From Clostridium pasteurianum (GTDB lineage: Bacteria > Bacillota > Clostridia > Clostridiales > Clostridiaceae), in NCBI RefSeq assembly GCF_001705235.1, contig NZ_MCGV01000001.1, positions 62,001-126,000 on the forward strand: a stretch of DNA of 64,000 nucleotides, given 5' to 3'. The notes beneath the pieces were generated by a model that saw only the letters and a program-made list of their open reading frames with translations, was not told where the DNA came from and made no database searches. How positions within the stretch are numbered: the first letter of the stretch is position 1; each line of letters begins with the position of its first letter. Made by a program: the position numbers and the translations under genes. Shown in pieces: positions 14,335 through 42,428 of the stretch.

Positions 14335-14601
14335 CTATTCTTTTTTATCATTATAAACTTTCATTACAGCATCCTCTATTTTTTTTCTTGCTTCATTGCT
14401 TATGGGAAATGCCACGTTTATATATCTCCCTACCTTATTTTTTCTGCTTGGGAAATCAAGAAATATTCCCCTCTTACCTTCAATTATTCTTATTCCATTA
14501 ACAACAAATTCGCCATCAATTGTTATTGCTGCAAATCCTTTTAAATTTGTATTTTTTAATATTGACTCATTTTTTATAATTTTTATATTCGTTATTTCCA
14601 T
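14335..14601 (-). CDS. spoVG: SpoVG-family RNA-binding regulator
   Basis: 88 residues with the SpoVG pattern: MEITNIKIIKNESILKNTNL, then KGFAAITIDGEFVVNGIRII, EGKRGIFLDFPSRK and FPISNEARKKIEDAVM. SpoVG proteins bind RNA and DNA and act as pleiotropic regulators. Chromosomal spoVG is normally elsewhere in clostridia, so this is an extra element-borne copy, probably a regulator of element genes. It follows the prepilin peptidase gene by 18 bases and closes that operon before a strong terminator. Confidence 0.9.
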   Translation of the reverse strand: MEITNIKIIKNESILKNTNLKGFAAITIDGEFVVNGIRIIEGKRGIFLDFPSRKNKVGRYINVAFPISNEARKKIEDAVMKVYNDKKE

Positions 14602-14619
14602 TTTAAATCTCTTCCTTTC

Positions 14620-15261
14620 TTATTTTAAAAATATAATTGTGAATAATAATGTAGCAACTATATATGGTCCAAAAGCTACTCGCATTTTTTTTAATATTTT
14701 TCTTTCTTTAATCATTAGATATATTCCGTAAAGACCACAAATAACTATTGAGGTTAGCATAATAATTACTGTCTTATTAAGTCCAGTGAGTAAACCACAC
14801 ACAAAGAATATTTCAACATCACCCCAACCGAAAACTTTTAAAGACGACAATATTATTGAGACTACCAATGCAAATACAGCCCCCATAATATATGTCTTTA
14901 CATCCACTCTATAAAGGAACTCTAAACCTATAAACATAAAATTAAGAACAGCAGCCGTAAGTATTGTTGAAAAGTAAACATACTTAGTTCTGTAATCTAT
15001 AAACGCAATTAACAGTAGTACAGAACACTCAGTGCAATACTTGAAAAAATCAATTGATATTCCATACTTTAAGTAAAAAATACAATAAATGACCCCAATT
15101 AAAGCAATTACAATCGTACGCTTATTAATTAATTTCTTAATATACTTAAAAATACCTTTTCTTAATTTATCCCCCTTTTCTTCTTTGGGAACTTTCCATG
15201 CAATCCATTCGATAATACTTCCACAGAATAACCCACATATGAAAATTAATACTATTAACAT
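14620..15261 (-). CDS. A24-type prepilin peptidase (TadV/CpaA-like)
   Basis: 213-residue multi-span membrane protein. The two catalytic aspartates of A24 aspartic peptidases are visible in FIDYRTKYVYFS (about 88) and FGWGDVEIFFVCG (the GxGD motif, about 149). The N-terminus (CGSIIEWIAWKVPKEE) resembles the truncated methylase segment of PilD enzymes. It would cleave the pilin and pseudopilins of the adjacent Tad operon at the inner face of the membrane. It is the only visible prepilin peptidase in the module. Confidence 0.85.
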   Translation of the reverse strand: MLIVLIFICGLFCGSIIEWIAWKVPKEEKGDKLRKGIFKYIKKLINKRTIVIALIGVIYCIFYLKYGISIDFFKYCTECSVLLLIAFIDYRTKYVYFSTILTAAVLNFMFIGLEFLYRVDVKTYIMGAVFALVVSIILSSLKVFGWGDVEIFFVCGLLTGLNKTVIIMLTSIVICGLYGIYLMIKERKILKKMRVAFGPYIVATLLFTIIFLK

Positions 15262-15291
15262 ATTTCATCTCCTTTCGATTTCACCTTACAT

Positions 15292-15332
15292 AAAAAAGAA
15301 AAGGCGAATAAGTATTTCTACCTATTCACCTT
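15292..15332 (-). terminator. Intrinsic terminator
   Basis: Minus-strand stem AAGGTGAATAGGTA/TACTTATTCGCCTT, imperfect, followed by TTTTCTTTTTT. It lies between the Ig-like surface protein gene and the prepilin peptidase gene. Confidence 0.75.
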
Positions 15333-15336
15333 CTAA

Positions 15337-17016
15337 TTATTTATCCTGTCCAGTACCTATTATCTCTGTTTTTATTCCATCTAGCACACTACCCAAAATA
15401 TTAAACTTCGGTTCAGCTGTCAAAGTACTATTATCTTGATAAGTTGCTTGTACTTTAACACTATAAGTTCCGTTCTTTACATCACGCAGTGGTATTACAA
15501 ATTCTATGTCACGCTCGTCTTCCTCACGTGGAATTAAATCCACAGCTTTATTTATAAAGCTATTGTATGCTTTGTTGTTATAATAATCTTCTAACGCTTG
15601 AGTGTCAGCTAAAACATCAAAAGGAAATTTGATTTCTAAATGTTTAGCATACGATTTCGTATGCACTTTTAAAATAGCAAGCTGTCCTCTCTTAAGCGTT
15701 GGGACACCTACAAAATTTTGATTATTATATGGAACAATTTGAGCCTGAAGCTCAATAGGCATTGTAATATTATATGTTCCGCTGCAAATGTCACTTTCAT
15801 TTCCTGCATTATCCCAAATTTGAGAATCTACTTTCCATTTTCCGCTGCCCTGTAGTTGTATATCCTGTCCAGCATTTCCACTTATGTCTGTATTCCACTG
15901 CTGCCAAGTATTTCCGTTGTCTTGTGACAATCTATATTTCCACGATTTCACACCGCTGCCGCCTTGATCCGTAGGTTTAAAATTTACATTAAATCCATAC
16001 GTTTTTAAATCTGCTGAATTAGGTGTATAAGTTCCTGTAGGAGCAATTGTATCAATGTAGTAGTTCTGACTTGTCTGCCAATCAGAAGTATTTCCTAAAT
16101 TGTCCACAGCTTGAACTTTAACTTGATATATTCCTTGTCCTGATAAGGTAATACTGTCATTTATATTATTCTCTGAACTAGACATTTGTTCTGGTGCATT
16201 ACTTTCACCCGTGACAAATTGAGCATTACTTAAGTCTGAGTGATCCTTAGCATATATCCAATCACAATCTTTCCAAACTCCATTCGTACATACTGAATAC
16301 CTATATTTCTGCACACCACAGCCGCTGTCAAGTATATTAACACCAATATTTATACTTTGGTTTGTCCAGTTATGTGACATTGGATCAATAGTAACAATAG
16401 GAGCTTTTCCATCTGTTTTAATAGTTTCTATGGACTGCGGCCAAGAAGATACATTATGTTCATCAGCTAACCAATTACCATTAAATGTAACAAAGTTACA
16501 TCGCGGGTAATACGTTCTATCATTATCGTCATTAAATTTTAGCCAAAATAAATTGCCGCAGTGCCAACATCCATCTGATACATTAGCTGGAGTATGTCCT
16601 ATTTCAGCATCTACTGGAATTACATCATCTGTTGAGCTATCAGCAACCAATCCAGCTCTATTTGAATCTGAATTTCTTGCATCCTTACCATAGATATACC
16701 ATTTACTAAAATTATCAGTACCATCTAAAGTTAAATACGAATTGCTAATTATATCATTCCAATCGCCTGATTGTTTCCATCTTACTTTTCCCCATGCGGT
16801 GACTCCAAGTACATCTTTAGGCTTGCACCAAACAGTATTTCTTATCCTAAGCCCTCCATGTTCAACAGCTGAACCATTTACATTAGGACTACTCCAATTT
16901 TTCCATCCATCTATTTCTGGATATACTTGTCCACCAATTGCATACACTTTAGTGCTTGCAAATATTCCAACTAGAATTAAACAACCAATTATAAAAACAA
17001 TAAATTTTTTATTCAT
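15337..17016 (-). CDS. Secreted Ig-like surface protein of the Tad operon
   Basis: The frame is open from 17034, but the real start is ATG 17016 (MNKKFIVFIIGCLILVGIFA), preceded by AGAGGAGA. A typical signal peptide ends near VYA. The mature part has an aromatic N-terminal domain with CxxC (CWHCGNLF), then two or more Ig/Big-like beta domains marked by DGKAPIVTIDP, DNLGNTSDWQTSQNYYIDTI and DNAGNESDIC repeats, and a final beta domain. No LPXTG or membrane anchor. It is probably an adhesin or tip protein of the pilus, inferred from its position between pilus genes and the prepilin peptidase. Confidence 0.65.
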   Translation of the reverse strand: MNKKFIVFIIGCLILVGIFASTKVYAIGGQVYPEIDGWKNWSSPNVNGSAVEHGGLRIRNTVWCKPKDVLGVTAWGKVRWKQSGDWNDIISNSYLTLDGTDNFSKWYIYGKDARNSDSNRAGLVADSSTDDVIPVDAEIGHTPANVSDGCWHCGNLFWLKFNDDNDRTYYPRCNFVTFNGNWLADEHNVSSWPQSIETIKTDGKAPIVTIDPMSHNWTNQSINIGVNILDSGCGVQKYRYSVCTNGVWKDCDWIYAKDHSDLSNAQFVTGESNAPEQMSSSENNINDSITLSGQGIYQVKVQAVDNLGNTSDWQTSQNYYIDTIAPTGTYTPNSADLKTYGFNVNFKPTDQGGSGVKSWKYRLSQDNGNTWQQWNTDISGNAGQDIQLQGSGKWKVDSQIWDNAGNESDICSGTYNITMPIELQAQIVPYNNQNFVGVPTLKRGQLAILKVHTKSYAKHLEIKFPFDVLADTQALEDYYNNKAYNSFINKAVDLIPREEDERDIEFVIPLRDVKNGTYSVKVQATYQDNSTLTAEPKFNILGSVLDGIKTEIIGTGQDK

Positions 17017-17032
17017 TTTTTTGTCTCCTCTC

Positions 17033-17072
17033 ATAAAAAAAACTCACGGATAATTAATATCCATGAGTTTTA
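17033..17072 (-). terminator. Intrinsic terminator touching a ribosome site
   Basis: Minus-strand stem AAACTCATGGATA/TATCCGTGAGTTT followed by seven or more T. The T-run ends only about two bases before the AGAGGAGA site of the following Ig-like protein gene. It would strongly limit transcription of that gene unless bypassed. Confidence 0.85.
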
Positions 17073-17095
17073 GATTTTTAAATATATTTTTATTT

Positions 17096-18595
17096 CTAAT
17101 TAGCAGGTGTGAAATATGTTACAATCCTAACAATTTCGTTTGTATTTCCTTCGTAGTTTACAAATACTCTATCGTATGTTTGTTGTGGATCTGCATTACT
17201 TACAAATTGTGTATTTAAAGTTTTAGCGGCATTTGCAAGTTTATCTGCATTGTTACTATCAAGTTTGGTACTTTCAGTATATATACCTGCCAGTTTATAA
17301 ACTTTGCCATTATAAGTGTATAAACCACCATTGTTATCTTTATAACTATTTTCTATATCTTTTTCCATATAATCTTTTGTCATTTCACCTGTAGAAACTG
17401 ACTGTGCATCAAGATTTATTCCTTCAAATGTGTTTCCTTTATTACCATGGTCATCCATAAATTGTACATTAGGATTTTTAGTTTTTCCAATAGCATCATT
17501 TACTTCATTTGATAATGTATAATTATTAAGAGGAGTACCCTTATATTCATAACCACCACCATTGATGCCTGTGGGTAATACTGCATGATCTCCATCATCT
17601 TTTGGTTGGGATGGTGTAGGTTCTGGATTATTATTTACTGGTATAAAATCAACTGGTGTAGTATCATGTCCTGTCAACACAATTCTTACTTCAATAGCTT
17701 CAACTCTAAGACCTTTACCATCTGTACCAGCTTCCTGTCCATCACTCACCCAGTTCTGCCATCCAATATTTTGTACATGTGCTCTATACTGAACTGAATA
17801 TCCTGGCATACCTTCAAGTGCTATCTTTATAGCTTCAACCCTATAACTTTTACCATCTGTACCGCCTTCTTGTCCATCACTTACTGGAGTTTGCCAACCT
17901 ATGTTCTGAACGTGAGTTTGATATTTTATATGTGCATCTGCTGGTGCATTTTCAAGATTAAGTTTTAAAGCTTCAACTCTTAAGCCTTGTCCCTCTGTTC
18001 CAGCGATTTGTCCATTTTCTACTGCATTCTGCCAGCCTATATTTTGTACATGTCCTGAATAATTTACACCTACAGTTGTATCGGATGTTTTAACAATCCT
18101 AATTTCTAAAGCTTCAACTCTAAGGCCCTTTCCATCTGTGCCGGCTTCCTGTCCATCACTTACCCAGTCCTGCCATCCAACATTTTCTACATGTGCTTTA
18201 TATTGAATGCTGTATCCAGGCATGTTTTTAAGTTTTATTTTTAGAGCTTCAACTCTAAGACCTTTACCATCCGTACCAGCTTCCTGTCCATCTTGTTTCC
18301 AGTCCTGCCAACCTATATTCTGTACATGTGCTTGATATTCTATAGCAGCTCCTTTAGGTGCATTGGTCAAATTTAATTTTAATGCTTCAACCCTAAGACC
18401 TTTACCGTCTGTACCGGCTTCTTGTCCATCACTTACCGGAGTTTGCCAGCCTATATTTTGTACATGTCCTGAGTAACTAACTCCTACATTTGCTATATTT
18501 GTATCTGCTTTCGCAATATTTTCATTTTTACTTATTCCTATAACTGCTGTCGTTAAAGCAACAGCTATTAATCCAGCTAAAAATTTTCTTTTCAT
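17096..18595 (-). CDS. Secreted ChW-repeat protein
   Basis: 499 residues with a signal peptide (MKRKFLAGLIAVALTTAVIG). Residues about 35-310 are six ChW repeats (clostridial hydrophobic repeats with conserved tryptophan), each containing HVQNIGWQ, DGQEAGTDGKGLRVEA and a final beta strand. They form two super-repeats of three. The C-terminal 180 residues are a separate unknown domain after a Pro-rich linker (NPEPTPSQPKDDGD). ChW proteins are surface or wall proteins abundant in solventogenic clostridia. It follows CpaB closely and probably decorates the wall or pilus. Confidence 0.85.
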   Translation of the reverse strand: MKRKFLAGLIAVALTTAVIGISKNENIAKADTNIANVGVSYSGHVQNIGWQTPVSDGQEAGTDGKGLRVEALKLNLTNAPKGAAIEYQAHVQNIGWQDWKQDGQEAGTDGKGLRVEALKIKLKNMPGYSIQYKAHVENVGWQDWVSDGQEAGTDGKGLRVEALEIRIVKTSDTTVGVNYSGHVQNIGWQNAVENGQIAGTEGQGLRVEALKLNLENAPADAHIKYQTHVQNIGWQTPVSDGQEGGTDGKSYRVEAIKIALEGMPGYSVQYRAHVQNIGWQNWVSDGQEAGTDGKGLRVEAIEVRIVLTGHDTTPVDFIPVNNNPEPTPSQPKDDGDHAVLPTGINGGGYEYKGTPLNNYTLSNEVNDAIGKTKNPNVQFMDDHGNKGNTFEGINLDAQSVSTGEMTKDYMEKDIENSYKDNNGGLYTYNGKVYKLAGIYTESTKLDSNNADKLANAAKTLNTQFVSNADPQQTYDRVFVNYEGNTNEIVRIVTYFTPAN

Positions 18596-18726
18596 TTATT
18601 CATTTTCCCCCTCAAATTTCATCCTTTATATTTAATTCTCTTTATAGTTATATATTACAATTAATCATATAACTTGGCAAACGAAATAAAAGTTTTCAAG
18701 TACTTTCTTGAAATTTTATGGAGAAA

Positions 18727-19377
18727 TTATTTCAATGAACTCTTTGCTATACTGAAATATCCATTCGATAAATCTTTAGATATTTTTATAAAATCATCCT
18801 GTGATCCCCTAACCATAATTGATGAAGCTAAAACATTTTTATCATTGCTCCCCAAAAATTTTCCTTGAGAATCAACAGCTCCGATAACTTCTGCTTTCTT
18901 CATATCAAACTCAGTATTATTATCGCTATTATCACTTTGAGATACAGTATGTGTTATATCAATAACATCACCTTTACGCAGAGTTCCAGCAAACGCATCA
19001 TTATTAACTTTACTAACAGGTATTGAAATTTCTTTTTCATTTTTCTTGAGAAATATTTTTGAATTATCATTTTTATCTGCTATTCTCTGCTTATTTAAAG
19101 CTTCCCCTTTATATATATCTTCTACAACATATTTATCTCTTAAATCGCTTACGTTCTTAATGTCATTATTATTAACATTAACTAAATTATAATCTACACT
19201 CACAAAATCGCTTTCTTTAAGTTTGCTTCCCTGATCTATATCTTTTGTTGCTACTAATATTTTTTGTTTAGGTACGGAATTTACAGCTTTATCCTCAATA
19301 TAAATCAGTCCGCCAAATAAAACAGCTGCTATTAATGTTGTACTTATAAGAACTTTAGGTCTAAAATTGAAATGCAA
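18727..19377 (-). CDS. cpaB: CpaB/RcpC-like pilus assembly protein (SAF domain)
   Basis: 216 residues: an N-terminal membrane anchor (LISTTLIAAVLFGGLIYIED), then a SAF domain (KQKILVATKDIDQGSKLKES, DFVSVDYNLV) and the RcpC-type C-terminal part (RKGDVIDITHTVSQSD). In Gram-negative Tad systems CpaB works with the secretin. Here no secretin exists, so it probably acts at the membrane or wall. It belongs to the pilus operon, 36 bases after the TadE-like gene. Confidence 0.85.
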   Translation of the reverse strand: MHFNFRPKVLISTTLIAAVLFGGLIYIEDKAVNSVPKQKILVATKDIDQGSKLKESDFVSVDYNLVNVNNNDIKNVSDLRDKYVVEDIYKGEALNKQRIADKNDNSKIFLKKNEKEISIPVSKVNNDAFAGTLRKGDVIDITHTVSQSDNSDNNTEFDMKKAEVIGAVDSQGKFLGSNDKNVLASSIMVRGSQDDFIKISKDLSNGYFSIAKSSLK

Positions 19378-19413
19378 ATTTTATCATTCCTTTCTTAATA
19401 TTTCAAATTTTAT

Positions 19414-19995
19414 TTATTTAACTATATCCGTATCGACAGAAGTTGTAACCATTTGACTTCCACCGAAAATCAAATTCACTTTATACTCTATAGTTGCATG
19501 TACACTTGTATTCTTAACCACAGAGTTATCAGATGTTTTTGTTATATTCCTTATTCCAGTGCTATGAACGAAAGTACGACAAGAATCAGTATACTTATAT
19601 ATATCAACACTATTACTATTTACATTGTATATAGTAAATTCATTTACAGTAACTTTTCCAACTGCAACACTCCCTTCAAGCCCATTAAAATTATCATCAA
19701 GCTCCATGTTTATTTTTAAATGTTCTTTGAAAGTTTCAAGAGCTGCATTAGGATCAATCCTTAAATCTCTATCGTCTATAGCTAGATAATTTAAATCCAC
19801 GTTTTTATAAACTGCAAGATTCGACAGTGTTACATCATCTTGCACACTTTCTGCTTCTGTTGTAATAACTTTTGTAAACATAACAAAAACTCCAAACAAT
19901 ACAACTATAATAAGTGTAAACATTCCGCATATTACAACCCCTGCATTTCCGTCGGCCTTACTGTTCAAAATTTTTTTTATTTTCAATATCACCAC
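19414..19995 (-). CDS. TadE/TadF-like pseudopilin
   Basis: 193 residues. After a short basic leader (KIKKILNSKADG) comes one hydrophobic helix (GVVICGMFTLIIVVLFGVFV) and a periplasm-like beta-rich C-terminus. The ADG-N junction before the helix resembles a prepilin cleavage site. This is the TadE/TadF pattern of minor pilins that initiate Tad fibres. It lies three bases after the TadE/DUF4320-like gene and before cpaB. Confidence 0.7.
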   Translation of the reverse strand: MVILKIKKILNSKADGNAGVVICGMFTLIIVVLFGVFVMFTKVITTEAESVQDDVTLSNLAVYKNVDLNYLAIDDRDLRIDPNAALETFKEHLKINMELDDNFNGLEGSVAVGKVTVNEFTIYNVNSNSVDIYKYTDSCRTFVHSTGIRNITKTSDNSVVKNTSVHATIEYKVNLIFGGSQMVTTSVDTDIVK

Positions 19996-19998
19996 CTC

Positions 19999-20445
19999 TT
20001 ACGGTTCAATCGCTTTCTTACTAGTAGAACTTTTATTTATAGTAATTGTTTTTGCTTCATTTGAAAGCATCGGTATTATTCCATCCTTAACTGTTAAACT
20101 CTTTATATTATCCTTATAACTTATATTTATCAATACATCTTCACCGTACTCAACAGGTGACAATGTTGTACCTGAAATATTTATATTACTTATACCAATA
20201 TTCTTAAGTTCAGACTCCATAGATGATACATTACTAGGGCTTAGATATCCTTCCTGTTCTTCTTTCAATGCATATTTTCTTACAACTGTTTCAACTTTAT
20301 ATTTATTTATAACTGGGATCATATTTGATATAAAATATACCATAGTAAATCCTAAAGCAAGCACAGCAACTAATGTTGCAACCACAACCTCAATACCGCC
20401 TTCACTTTTTTTGTTAATCTTCACCTCACCACTTCCTAAGCACAC
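19999..20445 (-). CDS. TadE-like pseudopilin (DUF4320-like)
   Basis: The frame shows 148 residues. The functional start may be the MKINKKSEGG-type region (GTG AAG ATT at codon 7 of the frame; GAGGTG upstream). A short basic leader, SEG-GIEVVVATLVAV, gives glycine before the cleavage point, glutamate at +3 and a long hydrophobic helix. The extracytoplasmic part is beta-rich. This is the class III prepilin-like architecture of DUF4320/TadE proteins of clostridial Tad clusters. Processing by the A24 peptidase at 14620-15261 is expected. Confidence 0.7.
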   Translation of the reverse strand: MCLGSGEVKINKKSEGGIEVVVATLVAVLALGFTMVYFISNMIPVINKYKVETVVRKYALKEEQEGYLSPSNVSSMESELKNIGISNINISGTTLSPVEYGEDVLINISYKDNIKSLTVKDGIIPMLSNEAKTITINKSSTSKKAIEP

Positions 20446-20453
20446 ATTGTATT

Positions 20454-20681
20454 TTATTTAAAAATACTTTTTTCAGTAGTCTGGAACCAAGTTTGTACAC
20501 TTGTCATAAAATCATTTATAAGGCTCTTATATATTGGATAAGTTATAATTAAAAAAACTGCTATTATAACTAAAACTGCAACAGTATTAACCTCCCCTTT
20601 CCTATTCTTGAGTACCTTGTTTTTAACTCCCTCTTCTGCGGCTATTGCTTTTGTAGTCAACATTAATCCTAAATTTTTCAT
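20454..20681 (-). CDS. Probable Tad major pilin, 75 aa
   Basis: Start chosen at ATG 20681 (MKNLGLMLTTKAIAAEEGVK) after AAAGGAG. The frame upstream of it overlaps a terminator hairpin. The leader ends KNRKG, followed by EVNTVAVLVIIAVFLIITYP, one hydrophobic helix, and a short polar tail (SVQTWFQTTEKSIFK). Size and layout match small Flp-type pilins. The conserved Flp Glu-Tyr pair is not clear, so the major-pilin role is inferred from size and from position between TadC and TadE-like genes. The hairpin 20714-20744 sits just upstream. Confidence 0.7.
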   Translation of the reverse strand: MKNLGLMLTTKAIAAEEGVKNKVLKNRKGEVNTVAVLVIIAVFLIITYPIYKSLINDFMTSVQTWFQTTEKSIFK

Positions 20682-20713
20682 TTTGACAACACTCCTTTTT
20701 AAATTTTGTTTCC

Positions 20714-20744
20714 ATAAAAAATGGTCACAGTTTCCTGTGACCAT
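20714..20744 (-). terminator. Intrinsic terminator before the pilin gene
   Basis: Perfect 10-bp stem ATGGTCACAG/CTGTGACCAT with a four-base loop, followed by six T. It separates tadC from the pilin gene and ends about 15 bases before the pilin ribosome site. Confidence 0.9.
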
Positions 20745-20757
20745 TTAAAACATTAAA

Positions 20758-21600
20758 TTAACTAAAAATACTATGTGCACTTTGCATCATATTAATCCCT
20801 ATAACATAGTAAACAATTGCTACAATTCCACCTAAAAGCATCATGGAAATTACAAGCACGTGCATATCTATTTTCTCAGTCTGACTTTCTGCATAGAATG
20901 AATTGACAGCCTTTAATGAGGTACCTTGATCATCCAGAGCATCTTCAGACACACCACTTGATACACTTTCCTTAATAAGAGCAACAAAAGAATCTATTTC
21001 AGGCATATCATATTCTTCACTAAAATCGTCCAGTGCTTTTTCTATATTTTTAGATAAATTTATTTTAGCTGCCAATCTTATAAGGCTTTTTTTTAATCTC
21101 TTACTTTTACAAACTGTATAAGCTTCAAGAAGTGCATGTCCTATGCTTACTCCTGCAACCGTCTGAAGTGTTACTAAATCATATACATCTGCTAAATCCA
21201 TTCTTATCTTGTTTTTATCGTCTTCATTACTTATATAATTTATAATATCCACTAGAAAGAATCCGAGAATGCCTGCTAATATAGACACTATAAATCCTAC
21301 TGTCGTAACACCTACATACCCAAAACCTGTTATAAAAAGAAGAACTCCTAATAAAATCTTTAACAGTATATATGTAGTAGGCTTTAATTTTAGTGGATTA
21401 CCACACTTAATAAGTTTTTCTTCTAGTATATTAGTATTAAAATATTTATCCATTGAAAAATTAGTATTTTTTTTAACTTTAAAGCTGCTTTTAATGTTCT
21501 TATATTGCTTGCTAAATCCAAATTTAATTGCTCTTCTAAGATAATAAGCTATTATTAATATGCATATAAGAAGAGCAACATTTAAAATAATATATTCCAT
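20758..21600 (-). CDS. tadC: TadC-like pilus assembly membrane protein
   Basis: 280 residues with T2SSF-type organisation: an N-terminal membrane helix, two spans near 85-135 (LLGVLLFITGFGYVGVTTVG), a cytosolic helical domain with the T2SF signature (LADVYDLVTLQTVAGVSIGH and FVALIKESVSSGVSEDALDD), and C-terminal spans (LVISMMLLGGIVAIVYYVIG). It forms the inner-membrane platform with TadB, driven by the TadA ATPase. 18 bases separate it from tadB. Confidence 0.85.
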   Translation of the reverse strand: MEYIILNVALLICILIIAYYLRRAIKFGFSKQYKNIKSSFKVKKNTNFSMDKYFNTNILEEKLIKCGNPLKLKPTTYILLKILLGVLLFITGFGYVGVTTVGFIVSILAGILGFFLVDIINYISNEDDKNKIRMDLADVYDLVTLQTVAGVSIGHALLEAYTVCKSKRLKKSLIRLAAKINLSKNIEKALDDFSEEYDMPEIDSFVALIKESVSSGVSEDALDDQGTSLKAVNSFYAESQTEKIDMHVLVISMMLLGGIVAIVYYVIGINMMQSAHSIFS

Positions 21601-21618
21601 TTTTTAAACTCTCCCTTC

Positions 21619-25236: not shown

Positions 25237-25272
25237 TAAAAAAAGCAGCTGCTTAAATTAATAAGCAACTGC
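25237..25272 (-). terminator. Leader terminator of the Tad operon
   Basis: Minus-strand stem GCAGTTGCTT/AAGCAGCTGC, eight-base loop, seven T. It lies between the putative promoter of repeat copy A and tadZ, so it would attenuate the whole pilus operon. It is nearly identical to 146-183, with compensatory arm changes. Confidence 0.85.
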
Positions 25273-25307
25273 TTCTTAAAATAAAGGAGGAATAGCCTTA
25301 GATAACT

Positions 25308-25475: not shown

Positions 25476-25484
25476 TCTCACTAT

Positions 25485-34063: not shown

Positions 34064-34101
34064 TCAAAAAATAAATAAAGGAGAAATCTAAAATTCCTCC
34101 T
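34064..34101 (-). terminator. Weak terminator after the sigma factor gene
   Basis: Minus-strand stem AGGAGGAAT/ATTTCTCCT overlapping the sigma factor stop codon, followed by TTTATTTATTTTTT. The T-run is broken, so partial read-through into the secretion genes is likely. Confidence 0.55.
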
Positions 34102-35356: not shown

Positions 35357-35377
35357 TTTTTTCACTCCTCATAAAAG

Positions 35378-35545
35378 AAAAGTTTACATGAGTAAAATTT
35401 TCACTAGCATGATTTTTTACATAGTTTTCCTAAGGCTAATGTAATTATATATCAACTCTAAAATTAAAAACCCACCCACTTTTCATCTTTTTTACAGTAA
35501 CTTTTACTACCCTAAATCCCTACCTAAACACTGTACATTTATATT
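35378..35545 (-). promoter_or_regulatory. Conserved promoter/leader repeat, copy B (regulator-sigma operon)
   Basis: Same order and spacing as copy A: GGTAGGGATTTAGG (35511-35524), GTGGGTGGG (35471-35479), 21 bases, TATAAT (35444-35449), then leader with CTAGTGAAAATTTTAC and TTTACTCATGTAAA (35383-35396). A G-T exchange in the AGTRAAA/TTTTACT arm keeps pairing possible, which hints at RNA structure. It also carries TACAGT...ACTGTA upstream. Transcription would start near 35437. Confidence 0.65.
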
Positions 35546-35577
35546 TTTTAATAAAAAAGCAGTGCCCTGAATATCTT

Positions 35578-35970: not shown

Positions 35971-36039
35971 AACCTCTTTTCTCTATAAAATAGCTTTCAC
36001 AGCAAATCTGCCAATAGCAGTTTGATATTTTACACCATT

Positions 36040-36228: not shown

Positions 36229-36234
36229 TGAAAC

Positions 36235-36519: not shown

Positions 36520-36538
36520 GATTCAACATCCCACATTC

Positions 36539-37864
36539 CTAATCATAAAACCCTTGAGCTTTTAAAAGCTTATGCTCCAAATCCTTAAAATCATATTTTC
36601 TCTGATCATAATTATTAAACTTATCTTTTACAGAATACTTAATATTGCTCCAGTTCTCTTTTATTGCTTTTATCAAAGCTCCTGTATAGCTTATATTTTT
36701 ACCCTTTGCATAACTTTCAACTATATCTATTTTTTCTTTAAGGTACTCAAGCCTGTTCATACTGACTGTACTACTTTCACTTAGACACACTATTATCTTA
36801 GGTATCTCCATATCAGAAACTTTATTTTTTAGCATAGCTGTAATTGACCTTATTTCACTTTCCGACATAGAGTTATTATTTAAGGTCTTTTCTTTAGCTC
36901 TTTCACTGGCTGCTAAATCTCTGATAAAACCTTCACAGAACTTCAAAGACCTTATCTTGTCTCCCTTATACTTAGGTTTAAAAGTTTCAAATGCTAGATT
37001 TATGCCATCTTTTATTACGTGTAAAGGTATCTTTTCTTCTTGAAATTGTCTCGCTAATACAACATCAACTGGCTTCTCCATTGTTATACAAGCTTTCAAT
37101 TTATAATAATCCAGTATTTTAACAAAAATATCTTTATCATTATCAGCTTCCACACCATCAGTTTTTATGTAACTATCATTTAGTCCCTTATTACTTAAGT
37201 TAGTATCTTTCTTAGAAGTAGTATTATTATTTTCTTTTTGTTTTTCTTTTTGTTTTTTGTTTTCTTTTTGTCCACTTATCGTTGACGTATCGTGGTACGT
37301 ATCGTCAAAACCCGCATTATTAAATGGTTTACCTAAAAATGTAATTTTATTTTTCCCTTCTTCACGTTCTGCCGACGTATCGTTATACGTATCGCACCTC
37401 GTTTCGTCCAACGTATCGTGTGATTTTAAATTTTTCACTGAATTTTTTATAAAACTGTAATAGATATTTTTTATACTCTCATTTCTTATACTTTCAGCAA
37501 CATATTTTACAAGCTCTATATTCTGAACTTCCTTAAATTCTTTTGTAATACAGTCTATAATAGGCTTTCCACCTTTATTGAGATTATATTTCCCCCAGTT
37601 CTTTATAGCTAGTTCTCTAGTAACTTCATCATATTTAATGAGCTTGTGATGCTCTACGAACCTACATATAAGACTATTAATTGATTCAATACTGTAACCA
37701 AGACCAAAAGCCATTTCCTTTTTAGTTATCTTATAAACTCCTATTTGAGTTGTTCTTGGATTTGTAAGTAAATATAAATAAAATAGCTTATCCTCTGGTG
37801 TGAAATTTTCCATTACATCTGGATCATCCCAAAATACTGTATATACATACCTGTATTTTGCCAT
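36539..37864 (-). CDS. Replication initiator-like protein (phage replisome organizer type)
   Basis: Start chosen at ATG 37864 (MAKYRYVYTVFWDDPDVMEN) with AAAGGAGCG, rather than the longer frame from 37894. The product has 441 residues. The N-terminal 110 form a winged-helix domain typical of phage replisome organizer proteins (TQIGVYKITKKEMAFGLGYS, VTRELAIKNWGKYNL). The middle is a low-complexity linker and the C-terminal part is helical (ISYTGALIKAIKENWSNIKY, DnaD-like). The linker DNA carries six iterons and a T/A-rich tract, so the gene probably includes its own origin, as in lambda O. Confidence 0.75.
   Translation of the reverse strand: MAKYRYVYTVFWDDPDVMENFTPEDKLFYLYLLTNPRTTQIGVYKITKKEMAFGLGYSIESINSLICRFVEHHKLIKYDEVTRELAIKNWGKYNLNKGGKPIIDCITKEFKEVQNIELVKYVAESIRNESIKNIYYSFIKNSVKNLKSHDTLDETRCDTYNDTSAEREEGKNKITFLGKPFNNAGFDDTYHDTSTISGQKENKKQKEKQKENNNTTSKKDTNLSNKGLNDSYIKTDGVEADNDKDIFVKILDYYKLKACITMEKPVDVVLARQFQEEKIPLHVIKDGINLAFETFKPKYKGDKIRSLKFCEGFIRDLAASERAKEKTLNNNSMSESEIRSITAMLKNKVSDMEIPKIIVCLSESSTVSMNRLEYLKEKIDIVESYAKGKNISYTGALIKAIKENWSNIKYSVKDKFNNYDQRKYDFKDLEHKLLKAQGFYD
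37228..37419. repeat. Iterons and T/A-rich tract, candidate replication origin
   Basis: Copies of ACGTATCGT start at 37285, 37297 and 37375, with ACGTATCGC at 37387, ACGTATCGT at 37411 and a one-mismatch ACTTATCGT at 37274. Spacings of 11, 12, 12 and 24 bases keep them on one helix face within two clusters. Next to them, 37228-37270 is an almost pure T strand with interspersed G, likely to unwind. The whole lies within the replication gene. Confidence 0.7.
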
Positions 37865-37881
37865 ATTAACGCTCCTTTCAT

Positions 37882-38202
37882 TTAGATTTTCCATTCCTTC
37901 ATAAAGCTTTTAAACATCTTATGTGACATTCTGTATTTATCATCTAGCAACTTTAATTTTGCAATTATACCTAAAATTTTATTGAAGTTATCTTCAGATT
38001 GCTCCAGTGAATCAATCTTTGTTATAACCATTTTTCTTTCATACAAATTCTTTTTTAAGTTTAAGATAAAAGTTTCTATATGCTTTTTGTATCTAACTGG
38101 ACTTTCTTTATACATAATTTCTAAAGTTTTTATATTTTCATCTATAATTTCACTGGTATACTTAACATCTTTTATAAGCTTATTTATACATGTATTTTTC
38201 AT
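37882..38202 (-). CDS. Small helical protein, 106 aa (paralogue of 39134-39466)
   Basis: Helical protein ending KLKLLDDKYRMSHKMFKSFM. It shares NKLI..V...E..EN, KERKMVI and the KLRxLDDxxxMS pattern with the 110-residue protein at 39134-39466. No family recognised. Encoded just before the replication gene. Confidence 0.6.
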   Translation of the reverse strand: MKNTCINKLIKDVKYTSEIIDENIKTLEIMYKESPVRYKKHIETFILNLKKNLYERKMVITKIDSLEQSEDNFNKILGIIAKLKLLDDKYRMSHKMFKSFMKEWKI

Positions 38203-38232
38203 ATAAACTCACCTTCTCTATGTAAATTCAAC

Positions 38233-38412
38233 TTAATTACCTTTCTTATTTGACAACCTCTTATGCCTTTTATAAGCCACAAATACTAATATCCAACCAA
38301 TCACAGCAAGTATATATGCAAATTTAAGAATGTCATTTGAATTAAAAAAGAATAATTGCAGTAAAGCTGACACACCAAATAAAATCAGTACCATTGAATC
38401 TAGCTTTCTCAT
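38233..38412 (-). CDS. Small two-span membrane protein, 59 aa
   Basis: ATG at 38412 after AGAAGGTG, stop at 38233-38235. The product starts MRKLDSMVLILFGVSALLQL and has a second span (FAYILAVIGWILVFVAYKRH) with a basic end. Compact spacing within the early gene run supports it. Function unknown. Confidence 0.5.
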   Translation of the reverse strand: MRKLDSMVLILFGVSALLQLFFFNSNDILKFAYILAVIGWILVFVAYKRHKRLSNKKGN

Positions 38413-38426
38413 TTTTTACACCTTCT

Positions 38427-38633
38427 CTAATACAATAATCTTTTTAATGTAATATGGTAGATATTATCCAAATCACACACAACATTACTTGTTTCCACGT
38501 TGTACACATTGTCACCATCAATATCAACTTCATCCTCTAACTTTTTAAGAATATTCTGAAAATCATTATTTCTACCATGATGTTTCAAATCTTGTCTAGT
38601 TTCTGTAGCCGCAGAAATAGGGGCTATTTTCAT
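38427..38633 (-). CDS. Hypothetical protein, 68 aa
   Basis: Acidic small protein beginning MKIAPISAATETRQDLKHHG. It overlaps the 3' end of the 55-residue ORF in another frame, so only one of the two may be expressed, or translation may be coupled. No family recognised. Confidence 0.45.
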   Translation of the reverse strand: MKIAPISAATETRQDLKHHGRNNDFQNILKKLEDEVDIDGDNVYNVETSNVVCDLDNIYHITLKRLLY

Positions 38634-38763
38634 ACTTATTGCAATTCCTCTCTTTCAGTTTAAAGTTGTAAATTTCAAGTAATTGTAATGCTTCTTCTAA
38701 AAGCTCCTTAAGCTCTTTATTTTCACTTTCAAGTTCATAATTACGTTTTACTGTTTCAATCAT
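38596..38763 (-). CDS. Small leucine-rich helical protein, 55 aa
   Basis: ATG at 38763 after GGGGAGGGTGAAA, a strong ribosome site. The start MIETVKRNYELESENKELKE continues as a leucine-zipper-like helix (LLEEALQLLEIYNFKLKE), then a short non-helical tail. Coiled coil likely. Function unknown. Confidence 0.5.
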   Translation of the reverse strand: MIETVKRNYELESENKELKELLEEALQLLEIYNFKLKERNCNKYENSPYFCGYRN

Positions 38764-38932
38764 TTTCACCCTCCCCTTTATCTAAAAAGTGTTTAGGTTT
38801 TTTATTCACATCAAAATTTCTAAGCACATAAAAGTATCATATAAAACATTTTTAATAAATTTTGACATTGCTTCATTACTTATTTTTTTCAACAATATCA
38901 TATGTAGTACAGTTGTAAGAATTACTAATGTT

Positions 38933-39118
38933 TTAATTATCCTTATAATTATTTATTTGATCTCTCCTGTGCTCTCTTATTTTTTTGAAAGCTTCAATCG
39001 AATTTTTACATCCATATCTTTTCATTTGCCTTTCTATTACTATTTTCTGCTCTGCTGTAGCCTGTACATGTTTTTTAAATAAAACTGTTAGCTCACCTAT
39101 TCTTCTATCACTTAACAA
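38933..39118 (-). CDS. Hypothetical protein, 61 aa
   Basis: Basic helical protein (VLFKKHVQATAEQKIVIERQ, then RREHRRD-like end). Part of the early gene run. No family recognised. Confidence 0.45.
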   Translation of the reverse strand: MLSDRRIGELTVLFKKHVQATAEQKIVIERQMKRYGCKNSIEAFKKIREHRRDQINNYKDN

Positions 39119-39133
39119 CTTAATTCACCCTCT

Positions 39134-39466
39134 CTATTCAATAAATTTTCCTATCAACAAAGAATTAGTATACATACTAAAAAATAATCTATAAGACATA
39201 CAATCTCTATCATCAAGAACTCTTAGCTTGCATATTAATTGAAATAATCTTTGAGAATTATTTGCCTGCTGTACTGCCTTAAGCTCTTCTATGACTTTAT
39301 TCCTTTCTTTAATATCCCTAGTTATAGTTTCAATAAAATTTTTTCCATGAACCTTATATTTATCATGTGACTTAAACAATATATCTTCTAAACCTTCAAT
39401 TATTATTTTTGAATTTTCATTAACTTCCTGTGATACTTCTATAAGATTTATTACTAACTTATTCAT
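39134..39466 (-). CDS. Small helical protein, 110 aa (paralogue of 37882-38202)
   Basis: Helical protein with LICKLRVLDDRDCMSYRLFF near the C-terminus, matching the 106-residue protein at 37882-38202 in length and pattern. Such paired paralogues flanking small genes suggest a segmental duplication. ATG at 39466 follows the excisionase-like remnant by four bases. Confidence 0.6.
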   Translation of the reverse strand: MNKLVINLIEVSQEVNENSKIIIEGLEDILFKSHDKYKVHGKNFIETITRDIKERNKVIEELKAVQQANNSQRLFQLICKLRVLDDRDCMSYRLFFSMYTNSLLIGKFIE

Positions 39467-39469
39467 TAC

Positions 39470-39652
39470 TTATATCACTCGCTTTTCCTCCGATATTTTC
39501 CTAAGCCAATTTTTCAACATAACTCTGTCAACTAAAGTTTTAGTTCCAACATAAAAATATGGTAAATTACTATTTTCTTTATATATAAGTTTTGTTATTT
39601 TATTTCTTCCAATTCCACTATCTTTAACATTAGTTTGTCCATATTTTGAGTC
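39470..39652 (-). pseudogene. Excisionase-like gene without start (probably broken)
   Basis: The 60-codon frame reads DSGIGRNKITKLIYKENSNL, then PYFYVGTKTLVDRVMLKNWL. This is the HTH_17/excisionase pattern (SGIG-N-I, YF-VG-KTL, W-L). A TGA stop precedes it, and no start codon or upstream half is found in this frame, so the N-terminal helix is missing. It may be a disabled recombination directionality factor, or be expressed after a frameshift. Confidence 0.5.
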
Positions 39653-39697
39653 TCAATCACAACTTACTTATAACTGCGTATACCATATTTTTTCACT

Positions 39698-39856
39698 TCA
39701 ATTCTTACCTTTGCTCTTTACATCTCCATTGCTATCATATTCCCAATTAGAGCCCATTACTCTTAAAACTGCTTCTAGCGTTTTATCTACACCAGAAACA
39801 TCATTAACAATTACAATCCTTCTTTTTCCATTAATAATAACTTTTTTTGTTTTCAT
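39698..39856 (-). CDS. Small hypothetical protein, 52 aa
   Basis: Frame from ATG 39856 to TGA 39698, starting MKTKKVIINGKRRIVIVNDV and ending DSNGDVKSKGKN. It overlaps the last codons of the Xre gene. The sequence looks protein-like, but the ribosome site is weak. Confidence 0.4.
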   Translation of the reverse strand: MKTKKVIINGKRRIVIVNDVSGVDKTLEAVLRVMGSNWEYDSNGDVKSKGKN

Positions 39857-40061
39857 CTTCTACTGCATCCCCAATACATAAATTAATTTTTTCAACCGAA
39901 ACACCTAATGCATGTGCAATTTTAACTGCTGTGTTTAATCTTATATCCATTCTTATTCCATTTTCTATTTCAGATAATGTTGACACACCAACATGTGCTT
40001 TTTTTGATAATTGATACATTGATGTGAACCCTTTTTCTCTTGCTAATTTAGACAATTTCAT
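39831..40061 (-). CDS. Xre-family regulator, 76 aa
   Basis: Small helix-turn-helix protein (LAREKGFTSMYQLSKKAHVG, then VSTLSEIENGIRMDIRLNTA and VKIAHALGVSVEKINLCI), essentially a single Xre domain. It is similar to the divergently transcribed Xre protein (40354-40749). Its promoter (TTGATT 40132-40137, GATAAT 40109-40114, 17-bp spacer) has an operator just downstream (40083-40099). Probably an early-gene switch protein acting against the other regulator. Confidence 0.85.
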   Translation of the reverse strand: MKLSKLAREKGFTSMYQLSKKAHVGVSTLSEIENGIRMDIRLNTAVKIAHALGVSVEKINLCIGDAVEDENKKSYY

Positions 40062-40353
40062 TAATAATATTCGCCCCCCCTTTTTCCGTTAACAGTAAAT
40101 ATATTATTATTATCTTTCCGAATGTAGAAAAAATCAACATTAAAAAATTCCTTTATTTTAACTTTAAAATAAATTATGTCATCATTTCTTATTATTCTTT
40201 AGCATTACAACTATTTCCTTTCTGTTATCAGAAATAATTATGCACATTTAGTAATATTTTTACAATTATTTACACAAAAGTATTGACTGTAAGCGTTGTT
40301 ACATATATAATGTTTCTGTAAACGGAAATATATCTTAAGGGAGAATAATTAAA
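40062..40353. promoter_or_regulatory. Divergent control region with three operator palindromes
   Basis: Operators TTTCCGTTAACAGTAAA (40083-40099), TTTCTGTTATCAGAAA (40219-40234) and TTTCTGTAAACGGAAA (40313-40328) share TTTCYGTTANCRGAAA. The plus-strand promoter is TTGACT (40283-40288), 17 bases, TATAAT (40306-40311). The minus-strand promoter is TTGATT/GATAAT. Two operators sit next to the predicted transcription starts and one lies between, as in phage-type lysogeny switches. Confidence 0.8.
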
Positions 40354-40749
40354 ATGGAAGTTTCTATATTAGGGAAGAACATTAAAAATATTAGAGAAAA
40401 AAAAGGTATGAATGCATATACACTGTCTAAAAAAGCGCACGTAGGTGCATCAACTATATCTGAGATAGAAAGCGGAATTAGGCAAAACCTAAATAGTTCA
40501 ACTGTTATGAAAGTTGCAAATGCACTCGGAGTTTCATTTGACTATTTGTATAAAGCAGAAACTAATACTGAATATGTCATAGAAGATATTGAAGATGCCC
40601 TTGAAATGGTATTAAACAGCGAGGAATTAAAATTAGATGATACTAAATTAAATGATAATGAACAACAACAATTAAAAATTGCCATTACATCTGCACTAAA
40701 TATCATTAGATTTAATAGAAAAAATGTAGAGGAGAGAACTAATAAATGA
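40354..40749 (+). CDS. Xre-family repressor coupled to the recombinase
   Basis: 131 residues: N-terminal Xre domain (about 8-65: LGKNIKNIREKKGMNAYTLS, then KKAHVGASTISEIESGIRQN, ANALGVSFDYLYKAE) plus an acidic helical C-terminus for oligomerisation. Stop TGA overlaps the recombinase ATG (ATGA), so translation is coupled. It probably keeps the element quiescent by binding the operators at 40083-40328. Confidence 0.88.
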   Translation: MEVSILGKNIKNIREKKGMNAYTLSKKAHVGASTISEIESGIRQNLNSSTVMKVANALGVSFDYLYKAETNTEYVIEDIEDALEMVLNSEELKLDDTKLNDNEQQQLKIAITSALNIIRFNRKNVEERTNK

Positions 40750-42428
40750 AAAAAGTAGCACTCTATTGTAGAGTAAGTTCTGATGATCAGAAAGAACGTG
40801 GAACCATAGAAAATCAAATTGAAACTCTTGTTTCATACATTAAATATATTAAAACAAATAAAGATATCGACATATATGGTCAATACTTAGATGATGGTGT
40901 AAGTGGTGCCATTGAATTTGTTAATAGACCCGCTGGATCAAAACTAGTTAAAGATGCATCAGATGGTCTTTTCAATATCGTTTTAGTTTGGAAAATAGAT
41001 AGATTTGGCAGAGATACACTTACTGGATTAAAAACAGTTGAATCTTTACGGAAATATAATGTTGAAATAATGAGTATGACTGAACCATTTGATTTAAATA
41101 CTCCAGCAGGACGATTTCAATTCATTACATATCTAAATATGGCTGAATTAGAACGCAATAATATACTTGACAGATTATTTCTTGGTGCTACCATAGCTGC
41201 TAAAAAAGGTAAATGGATGGGAGGAATCGTGCCATATGGATACGAAAAAAATAATGATGGCTTTTTAGAAATCAATAATAATGAAGCTAAAATAATACGT
41301 GAAATTTTTGATATGTACACAAATAAAAGATTTAGTACTATAGATATAGCTGTATACTTAAACAATTTAGGTATACCATCTAGTTGCGGAAAAGGTAAAG
41401 GAAAAAGGACAAAAAAAGTGAGTGGTAAATGGCGATGTAGTTCAATAGATAGAATTTTGAATAGTACAACCTATAAAGGTATACATGAATATGGCAAACG
41501 TGCTACTAGAAGGAAAAAAACTATTATAAGAAAAGTACCCGCCATCGTTTCTGAAGAAATTTGGAATAAAGCACAAATAGTGAAAGAAAAGAACAAATTA
41601 ATTTCCAAAAGAAATATCAAAAGGAGACAATATCTTTTGCGAGGCCTTATATCATGTGGTATTTGTGGATATAATTATTATGGAATAAGTTATACAAATA
41701 AAAGTTCTGTATATGCCTGTAGGGGAAAGCTAGGAAAAGAAAATAAAAAGATTCTAAATATAAAATGTAACAATCTTAATATAAATGCAAATCTCCTTGA
41801 AAATGAAGTATGGCAAACATGTTTAGATATACTTAAAAATTATAATAAGTATATCAAACATTTAAAACAAAAATCATCAAACAATAACAATGATAATATA
41901 AAAAATGCGTTAGATAAATTGAATTCTAATTTAGCTAATAAAAATAGCGAAAAGGAAAAAATATTGAGTTTATTTAGAAAAAACATCATTAATGAAGAAG
42001 ATGTTAAAAATCAACTGCTTGATATTCAAGAAGAAGAAAAGAAATTGTTAAACTTAATCAACAATTTGAAAACAAACAAGAGGCATAATAATAATGAAAA
42101 TAAATTAATACATAATATGTCTGATAAACTTGAATACTATAAATCAAAACTAGATAAACTTGAATTCCAAGACAAGTATGATATAGTTCATATACTTGTA
42201 AAAAAAATAACTATAGATACTACTATTAAATATGGTCAAAAAGTTCCTAAAGCAACTATAAAATATAACCTTGTATCACCTTTAGTAAATGATTGTCAAA
42301 GTGTCAAATTTTCAAACTGCACGGATGTCCTTGCGGTAACTATGGCTCGGATAGAGAATGTACCTGTACAGAATATCAAAGGAAAAGATATTTATCAAAA
42401 TTATCAAGTGCCATTATTGATAGAATAG
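40746..42428 (+). CDS. int: Large serine recombinase (integrase)
   Basis: 560 residues: resolvase catalytic domain (about 1-150) with ALYCRVSSDDQKERGTIENQ (catalytic Ser11), then the recombinase domain (about 170-270) and a zinc ribbon (CGICGYNYYG near 305, ACRG and KCNN). A long coiled region follows (about 375-460). From about residue 526 the frame reads across the attachment junction into comM DNA, so the last 35 or so residues (NCTDVLAVTMARIENVPV...) are host-derived and not conserved. In the excised circle the C-terminus would differ. It catalyses insertion into comM. Confidence 0.95.
   Translation: MKKVALYCRVSSDDQKERGTIENQIETLVSYIKYIKTNKDIDIYGQYLDDGVSGAIEFVNRPAGSKLVKDASDGLFNIVLVWKIDRFGRDTLTGLKTVESLRKYNVEIMSMTEPFDLNTPAGRFQFITYLNMAELERNNILDRLFLGATIAAKKGKWMGGIVPYGYEKNNDGFLEINNNEAKIIREIFDMYTNKRFSTIDIAVYLNNLGIPSSCGKGKGKRTKKVSGKWRCSSIDRILNSTTYKGIHEYGKRATRRKKTIIRKVPAIVSEEIWNKAQIVKEKNKLISKRNIKRRQYLLRGLISCGICGYNYYGISYTNKSSVYACRGKLGKENKKILNIKCNNLNINANLLENEVWQTCLDILKNYNKYIKHLKQKSSNNNNDNIKNALDKLNSNLANKNSEKEKILSLFRKNIINEEDVKNQLLDIQEEEKKLLNLINNLKTNKRHNNNENKLIHNMSDKLEYYKSKLDKLEFQDKYDIVHILVKKITIDTTIKYGQKVPKATIKYNLVSPLVNDCQSVKFSNCTDVLAVTMARIENVPVQNIKGKDIYQNYQVPLLIE
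42315..42350. other. Right attachment site (attR) in comM
   Basis: ComM proteins normally read N-P-C-P-C-G at this point. Here the frame reads L-H-G before C-P-C-G (CPCG codons at 42326-42337), showing that comM sequence resumes at about 42,326. The crossover must lie within the TGTCCTTGCGGTAAC stretch, but the exact core dinucleotide cannot be fixed without the left end or the empty site. Confidence 0.75.

Follow-up and report, generated by a model that had tools for sequence, protein, structure and literature searches.

A Tad pilus locus beside a conjugation operon on an integrated element of Clostridium pasteurianum

Results

Two gene sets 286 bp apart

The window analyzed here is a 64,000-nucleotide stretch of Clostridium pasteurianum (assembly GCF_001705235.1), positions 62001–126000 of contig NZ_MCGV01000001.1 (C1 below), in a two-contig genome of 4.68 Mb. 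It holds part of an integrated element on which a type IV secretion system (T4SS) operon of the VirB4/PrgI type lies beside a Tad pilus locus. A preliminary description, made from the sequence alone, had placed the two sets 286 bp apart in one orientation; the gap is exactly 286 bp, and every assigned gene between 35365 and 14335 lies on the minus strand. Positions are those of the window unless prefixed by C1, and the open reading frame (ORF) picking could choose late starts.

The conjugation operon, entirely minus-strand, spans 35365 to 25485. It opens with a helix-turn-helix (HTH) regulator (34712–35365; Pfam HTH_7, 4.2e-5) and a Sigma-70-family factor (34088–34708; Sigma70_r2, 1.6e-10), followed by a small membrane protein conserved in relatives, T4SS-pilin-like by position and with no Pfam match (33727–34008), a T4SS pilin-like protein (33328–33711; T4SS_pilin, 6.8e-6, just below cut-off) and the VirB3-like PrgI (32929–33276; 8.7e-13). 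The VirB4 ATPase (30296–32167; AAA_10, 9.9e-13; NCBIfam CD1110-family VirB4-like, 4.6e-63, below cut-off) is split, its N-terminal part being a separate gene (32136–32909) that is fused to VirB4 in a Clostridioides plasmid. Next come a VirB6-like polytopic protein (28211–30280), a VirB1-like wall hydrolase with C39 peptidase and 3D domains (26231–28126; 3D, 6.5e-19; Peptidase_C39_2, 3.4e-17) and p244 (25485–26219). PrgI, VirB4 and the hydrolase, all named in the preliminary description, are confirmed by these Pfam matches; the VirB6-like protein keeps its name by size and position, its sole Pfam match being an N-terminal T4SS_pilin (1.4e-7). For p244, a VirB8/TcpC-like candidate, the AlphaFold model (mean pLDDT 71) has one N-terminal helix, a low-confidence linker and a helix-plus-4-strand domain, and a fold search puts an NTF2-like protein at the top and a solved NTF2-like conjugation protein lower, none passing E 0.001; this weakly suggests a VirB8-like protein. 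The VirD4 coupling protein lies beyond the window, near a topoisomerase (C1:53047–55005; PF02534, 3.1e-70), and a PcfJ protein at another place in the element. An FtsK/TraB-like coupling protein of the Cutibacterium-plasmid (C. acnes) kind was considered and a VirD4-type one was found, with further FtsK-like proteins not searched element-wide.

Across the gap, the Tad locus (14620–25198) has a candidate for every expected part of a monoderm Tad system, in which an outer-membrane secretin is not expected. The order from 25198 to 18727 is tadZ-tadA-tadB-tadC-pilin-tadE-tadF-cpaB, followed by a ChW-repeat protein, p565 and an A24 peptidase down to 14620; all are on the minus strand. By profile comparison TadA (22557–23855) is of the CpaF kind, CpaF being its nearest solved relative: a profile of three sequences scores 153 bits with CpaF in the PDB, 121 with a type II secretion ATPase, at most 107 with FlaI and at most 84 with VirB11, and TIGR03819 matches at 1.6e-30, below cut-off. 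TadB (21619–22560; T2SSF, 3.9e-6) and CpaB/RcpC (18727–19377; SAF, 1.4e-6) are over cut-off, the latter also matching TIGR03177 (4e-15) and RcpC below cut-off, and the A24 prepilin peptidase (14620–15261) matches Pfam at 3.5e-14. The completeness claimed in the preliminary description is backed by sequence matches for four parts (a CpaF-kind TadA, a T2SSF-bearing TadB, an A24 peptidase and a SAF-bearing CpaB), and for the others by order, homologs and one weak profile match. TadZ (23852–25198), with no convincing family match in Pfam or PDB, is placed by order and by homologs 5′ of TadA in the Tad loci of relatives; TadC (20758–21600), with no Pfam match, by position, conservation and a weak hhalign match to TadB (E 1.6e-5, probability 79, over 73 columns). 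The Flp-type pilin candidate (20454–20744; KG/EVN then a hydrophobic stretch, by eye) and the TadE-like candidate (19999–20445) are conserved in 4/5 relatives and the TadF-like candidate (19414–19995) in 5/5; these three have no significant match in Pfam or NCBIfam and are placed by order, conservation and N termini read by eye.

The slot between CpaB and the A24 peptidase holds two secreted-looking proteins on the same strand, one with six stretches of ChW repeats (17096–18595; Pfam ChW, 7.4e-109) and p565 (15337–17034), an adhesin candidate with weak immunoglobulin (Ig)-like/internalin matches below cut-off. p565 diverges fast: it has partial matches of 25%–28% in two relatives, against 50%–52% for CpaB and 49%–53% for the A24 peptidase. 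Surface proteins of other kinds lie near Tad elsewhere: S-layer-homology proteins in the Vallitalea plasmid pVpro, cell-wall-binding repeats in the plasmids pESS17301a and pCd5_2, giant Ig-like proteins 10–30 kb away in pESS17301a, CWB2/transglutaminase proteins in Clostridiaceae bacterium BL-3 and, by eye, large secreted-looking proteins in C. hydrogenum and C. guangxiense. Such variable surface proteins fit variable partner binding; colonization adhesins would look alike.

An integrated element in comM

The element interrupts comM, a competence-associated gene, whose 5′ part lies at C1:4416404–4417462 and whose 3′ part forms an open frame at 42293–42802 on the plus strand. Alignment to an uninterrupted comM of a same-genus genome, which provides the empty site, identifies an 11-bp attachment (att) core in both parts (C1:4417448–4417458 and, on the plus strand, 42326–42336). 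A comM match was found in 18 of 19 other relatives searched, as a single open frame of 483–537 aa in 16 and with a stop or split in two. In genome G391, taken as C. hydrogenum (locus L174), comM reads as 363 aa and contains one stop, which may mark a further interruption.

A large serine recombinase (40746–42428, plus strand; Resolvase, 1.3e-28; Recombinase, 8.3e-17; Zn-ribbon domain) has its last codons across the att core, and an HTH regulator (40354–40749, plus strand; HTH_3) lies 5′ of it. These domains and the cut gene bear out the earlier assignment of a serine recombinase in comM. The extent then given, 14335–42428, has to be revised: the element measures ~172.6 kb, from C1:4417459 through the contig ends to C1:104336, and continues beyond the left edge of the window, which holds its right-hand quarter (1–42336). 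This size assumes that C1 is circular, as a 408-aa frame across its ends suggests. With a site-specific recombinase, att repeats and an empty site, and with VirB4 and a coupling protein both on board, the element is integrative and, judged by its genes, very probably conjugative.

Recurrent linkage of VirB4 and TadA

The preliminary description had pointed to clostridial genomes and plasmids as the place to look for VirB4 near TadA, and there the linkage recurs. Match lists were of limited length and covered the best few candidates per genome (two for VirB4 and four for TadA in the scans behind the 20 VirB4 and 40 TadA loci below), so linkage counts are lower bounds. A scan of 206 genomes of the family found at least seven loci of the window's VirB4 lineage in at least six genomes (E up to 1e-60). 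TadA lies 6–15 kb from VirB4 in the window, C. hydrogenum, C. guangxiense and Clostridiaceae bacterium BL-3, and the order T4SS-p244-tadZ-tadA-tadB is common to the first three. In pVpro the T4SS is followed by Tad, and in the Clostridioides plasmid pESS17301a the linkage is present in a different gene order; with these plasmids it reaches two other clostridial orders. Recurrence of the same order in other species and on plasmids rules out a chance neighborhood. Genome G486 has no TadA at E 1e-20. Directly 3′ of its T4SS core, whose VirB4 belongs to the same lineage as that of the window, it has divergent type IV filament-like genes (L187; C39:6259–14476), encoding a weakly ParA-like protein, a weak T2SSE ATPase (Pfam 2.6e-5, below cut-off) and a 683-aa protein without family.

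Across the class we took 391 genomes and the best 40 TadA loci outside this genome; they come from 35 genomes, five of which contributed two loci each. VirB4 lies within ~22 kb in 14 of the 40, where rough arithmetic, assuming two VirB4 genes per 3.5-Mb genome, expects ~1; among the linked loci, the VirB4 frame picked in G201a has only 146 aa, and in G141:C18 a stop interrupts TadA. By annotation, the Tad operon of the Clostridioides difficile plasmid pCd5_2 lies ~10 kb from VirD4 and a pLS20-type conjugation protein. The 435-kb Alkaliphilus plasmid pB6464 (L201) has three annotated ATPases of the type II secretion/type IV pilus/CpaF family within 37 kb, each adjoining pilus-type or T2SSF-type genes.

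Apparent re-pairing of modules

The VirB4 tree puts the window, a second copy in the same genome, C. hydrogenum, C. guangxiense, pVpro and pESS17301a in one clade (support 100/99). The TadA tree differs: there pESS17301a joins the other main clade and pVpro a ten-member one, eight members of which have no VirB4 in reach. Identities agree, the VirB4 of pESS17301a being 37%–39% identical to the window clade and at most 23% elsewhere, and its TadA 19%–22% identical to the window clade and 38%–51% to the other main clade. An approximately unbiased (AU) test rejected the TadA of pESS17301a constrained with the window group (p 5.8e-6) and, more weakly, that of pVpro (p 0.021); these p-values are optimistic, since the identity tables and the TadA tree were already known when the groups were taken from the VirB4 tree. 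Long-branch warnings apply to pVpro and G382 in the TadA tree and to G155, pVpro and pESS17301a in the VirB4 tree. VirB4 and TadA distances are nevertheless correlated across 20 loci (Mantel r 0.82, p 0.0001); the trees dropped G141:C18 from TadA and G201a from VirB4, and the Mantel test kept both. Correlation despite the conflict points to co-inheritance with swaps, and the trees indicate that one VirB4 lineage has been paired with different Tad lineages.

The second copy bears on the same question. Its T4SS core and its Tad-A24-VirD4 genes (C1:4208474–4220575 and C1:4290199–4301980) are separated by ~70 kb of chromosomal-looking genes. DNA identity to the present element is 91%–92% over the T4SS core (PrgI to p244), 75% over tadZ-tadC and 68% from the pilin to CpaB, so that here too the modules differ from one another in their divergence. 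The genes for p244 and p312 adjoin in the second copy; here the Tad-Par block lies between them.

A leader before each operon

A leader of ~185 bp occurs in just two full copies in the genome, both on the minus strand, one 5′ of the first T4SS gene (35372–35552; nhmmer E 2.6e-41) and one 5′ of tadZ (25295–25483), 79% identical over 160 bp; two further partial matches span ~25 bases (E 0.06). Read by eye, both copies keep a −10-like box and stand immediately 5′ of an operon head. The two copies of one element resemble each other more closely (77% here, 84% in C. guangxiense) than copies from different elements do (54%–64%), and C. hydrogenum has a weak match (nhmmer, E 0.024) 5′ of its T4SS operon head. 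Rfam has no riboswitch in the leader at gathering score; one match, IMES-4 (E 0.55), lies elsewhere.

The gap between the modules also contains a terminator-like hairpin of 16 pairs (25240–25277, minus strand), and the gap folds at z −3.33. The hairpin is the top-listed of seven in a 20-kb scan, against 6.3 in shuffles, so its reading as a terminator rests on its length and place. With such a hairpin between the modules, co-orientation is not to be equated with co-transcription, and a single co-transcribed operon is not favored, though such hairpins match the shuffle frequency. We take the leader pair to be a shared control signal, the possible alternative being a recombination scar, weighed below.

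Discussion

A pilus for mating-pair formation?

Little is known of how Gram-positive donor cells locate recipients and keep hold of them. We favor, by a modest measure, a Tad pilus that serves mating-pair formation and is co-expressed with the T4SS through the leaders, as a Gram-positive counterpart of the R64/IncI and PAPI-1 pili. On this model the serine recombinase would insert the element into comM, and once the element is switched on, the leader 5′ of each operon would activate the T4SS and Tad operons together. The A24 peptidase would process Flp-type pilins, which would be assembled into a pilus that a TadA-TadB-TadC motor extends and retracts. The pilus would bring mates together, with the fast-evolving secreted proteins of the CpaB–A24 slot (the ChW protein and p565) helping to bind the partner cell; the wall hydrolase would then open the cell wall, and VirD4 and VirB4 would pass DNA through a VirB6/VirB8-like channel. 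The preliminary description had likewise proposed that pilus and VirB-like channel work as a unit, an idea that draws partial support from the leader pair, the recurrent linkage and the apparently re-paired modules.

Several observations weigh against mating-pair formation. The relaxase family PF03432 has no match in the whole genome, other relaxase families and the origin of transfer (oriT) not having been searched; the one candidate, a weak one, is a protein of 298 aa encoded near VirD4 that has an integrase SAM-like domain. VirB4 and TadA are 77 kb apart in the second copy and 61 kb apart in another genome of the genus (G393). No VirB4 was seen in the fetched stretch for 26 of the 40 TadA loci, 15 of them viewed only on a first stretch of 3.5–20 kb, and TadA is near none of the best 20 VirB4 loci outside this genome in the 6.5–20 kb fetched, where one TadZ-like fragment and one TadB-like protein occur. 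The preliminary description had held that related elements routinely lacking one module with no effect would speak against its idea; of this the first half is seen, in relatives of this T4SS that have no TadA in the stretch fetched. With 14 of 40 TadA loci linked and 0 of 20 VirB4 loci bearing TadA, Tad is by sequence a recurrent but non-obligate companion of VirB4. Terminator-like sites are no commoner in the region than in shuffles, and the C. guangxiense leaders stand 5′ of tadZ and 5′ of spoVG, not of the T4SS operon. Nor is the leader pair a general rule: none was recognized between operon heads in 13 other loci, a comparison in which the repeats of G136, pVpro, pESS17301a and BL-3 were not all mapped and from which C. 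hydrogenum and C. guangxiense were left to the nhmmer scan.

Other explanations are not fully exclusive of this one or of each other, and our estimates for them need not add up to certainty. The Tad pilus could be fitness cargo, attaching the host to surfaces or mucus while riding on a conjugative element. The TadA loci with no VirB4 in the stretch fetched and the T4SS relatives without TadA in reach speak for cargo, and the tad locus of C. acnes plasmids is discussed as an adhesion factor with an unclear link to conjugation (PMC5696575); against this stand the two full leader copies, one per operon, and the repeated linkage with distant VirB4 lineages, and we consider cargo unlikely, though well worth keeping in mind. 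The duplicated leader might instead be a recombination scar or exchange site; the modules would then have been brought together recently and share no function. Direct-repeat leaders do lie on either side of the T4SS operon, whose core is far closer to the second copy than Tad is, and p244 and p312 are neighbors there and separated by the Tad-Par block here. Yet both leaders keep a −10-like box at an operon head, and their likeness within an element recurs in C. guangxiense, which makes a mere scar rather improbable; assembly by recombination would in any case be compatible with joint function.

Three further possibilities concern what the pilus machinery does. According to a 2025 T4SS review, PAPI-1 depends on its type IV pilus in every mating condition (PMC12857230), and the present pilus might, as proposed for PAPI-1, be part of the DNA path, with transfer impossible without it. 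Compared with PAPI-1 as described there, the element itself encodes a larger share of a T4SS (PrgI, split VirB4, VirB6-like protein, wall hydrolase and VirD4), and there are relatives of this T4SS for which the stretch fetched has no TadA, so that we regard a DNA path through the pilus as very improbable. The element's place in the competence-associated comM would suit a pilus for DNA uptake by host or recipient in place of mating. A tad locus is also reported to be required for transformation in Micrococcus luteus (PMC5696575). The scan of 40 proteins left of 42.4 kb, however, gave no match to a ComEA/ComEC-type family, and one leader copy stands 5′ of a DNA-export operon; uptake has a slim chance of being the answer. 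Slimmer still is the chance that TadA doubles as the VirB11-type ATPase said to be absent from Gram-positive T4SSs, a role compatible with mating-pair formation. TadA and VirB11 belong to one ATPase superfamily, but TadA is nearer to CpaF (153 against 84 bits), sits within the Tad operon and is missing from the fetched stretch of all 20 next-best VirB4 loci.

Relation to known systems

Transfer is coupled with other type IV pili in R64/IncI and in PAPI-1 (PMC12857230). The R64/TP114 pilus is needed for mating in broth or gut and not on a solid support (PMC8213034). Like the present element, these IncI plasmids combine a T4SS with a distinct type IV filament on one mobile element; they are diderm systems with a Dot/Icm-like T4SS and a type IVb pilus, whereas here a monoderm VirB4/PrgI-type T4SS accompanies a CpaF-type Tad. 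PAPI-1 of Pseudomonas resembles it as a genomic island with a type IV pilus and VirB4/VirD4 homologs, and differs in an essential pilus and two clear T4SS homologs, against a fuller monoderm T4SS and a Tad pilus here. The C. acnes plasmids p15.1.R1, pIMPLE and p09-9 share a Gram-positive host and a tad locus adjoining a conjugation locus that includes VirB4 upstream of tad (PMC5696575); they are actinobacterial, with an FtsK/TraB-like translocase and a TcpC-like protein, compared by description only, whereas the present element is an integrated 172.6-kb clostridial one with VirD4 and a serine recombinase. These Flp plasmids are a partial precedent. The earlier statement that no named system has exactly this composition was too strong because C. 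acnes plasmids, R64/IncI and PAPI-1 couple transfer with pili, and the composition is not unique.

pVpro and pESS17301a share with the element a VirB4 clade, Tad, an S1 protein and parts of the replication/PcfJ backbone; they are circular plasmid records, and their TadA falls in other lineages, firmly for pESS17301a and weakly for pVpro. The nearest NCBIfam VirB4 model is of CD1110/CD1115-type systems, and the VirD4 of the plasmid relatives is annotated as CD1115 family; unlike in those systems, VirB4 here is below the model cut-off and split into two genes. Tad systems are often transferred among bacteria according to a study of the type IV filament superfamily (PMC6668835), and a word search of the 2025 review did not find "Tad" (PMC12857230). 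No description of a clostridial T4SS-Tad element was recognized in the literature searched, which lay mostly outside subscription journals and whose matches were partly covered. On the favored reading, the element would be a new variant of type IV pilus-assisted conjugation. We give somewhat less than even odds that an as yet unnamed group of conjugative elements is widespread in clostridia, one where T4SSs of the monoderm kind and Tad pili were brought together repeatedly, are switched on (in this element) by a common leader and rely on interchangeable surface proteins for recipient recognition, as a Gram-positive, Tad-based equivalent of the R64 and PAPI-1 mating pili.

If the Tad pilus is a mating device, it would be a defined, removable target, and the occurrence of distant clostridial VirB4 lineages with Tad loci would be accounted for. 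The leader, pilus and variable surface protein would be a test bed for recipient choice. Annotators should be cautious, for tad beside VirB4 may be a transfer gene set and not a colonization factor; MOB-suite typing in PLSDB called all four Tad-bearing plasmids viewed non-mobilizable.

Partition, replication backbone and possible cargo

Downstream of Tad, on the minus strand, lie a SpoVG homolog (14335–14601; Pfam 1.1e-25), a ParM-type actin (13135–14187; ALP_N, 1.4e-24) and a ParR candidate (12818–13111). Of the ParM/ParR pair in the preliminary description, ParM is thus confirmed by Pfam and ParR, with no Pfam match, is placed by position. As to the internal origin then proposed, nothing convincing in the way of iterons or an origin was recognized in the two stretches scanned for repeats (12500–14700 and 37800–40800), and clear replication genes (beta clamp, DnaX-like, primase-like and UvrD) lie elsewhere in the element (C1:4446954–4459705). 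Because 30 of its 167 ORFs match pVpro or pESS17301a proteins (E up to 1e-4), the element is, by these matches, a member of a plasmid-like family and no one-off. Backbone matches include primase-like, DnaX-like, UvrD, single-stranded DNA-binding (SSB), PcfJ and S1 proteins; VirD4 matched in pESS17301a alone, being cut by stretch borders in pVpro, and the pESS17301a comparison covered all but the last 9.4 kb. Megablast found no near-identical plasmid copy. A viral origin was set aside, with no relative in viral contigs in the VirB4 alignment and phage records giving distant VirB4 matches only.

Left of the window but inside the element, genes at C1:37649–44077 resemble type III CRISPR-Cas by eye, and C1:1–20000 has the look of a biosynthetic cluster, also by eye, with carrier, adenylation-like and B12-radical-SAM-like proteins. 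Within the window, a Ser/Thr kinase-like protein (2942–4711) and an Mrr-type nuclease (9824–10564) are possible defense cargo. Dispersed repeats at 4847–4993, 2652–2816 and 50013–50266, with no Rfam match at gathering score, reach 98.6% identity with copies close to the second T4SS set.

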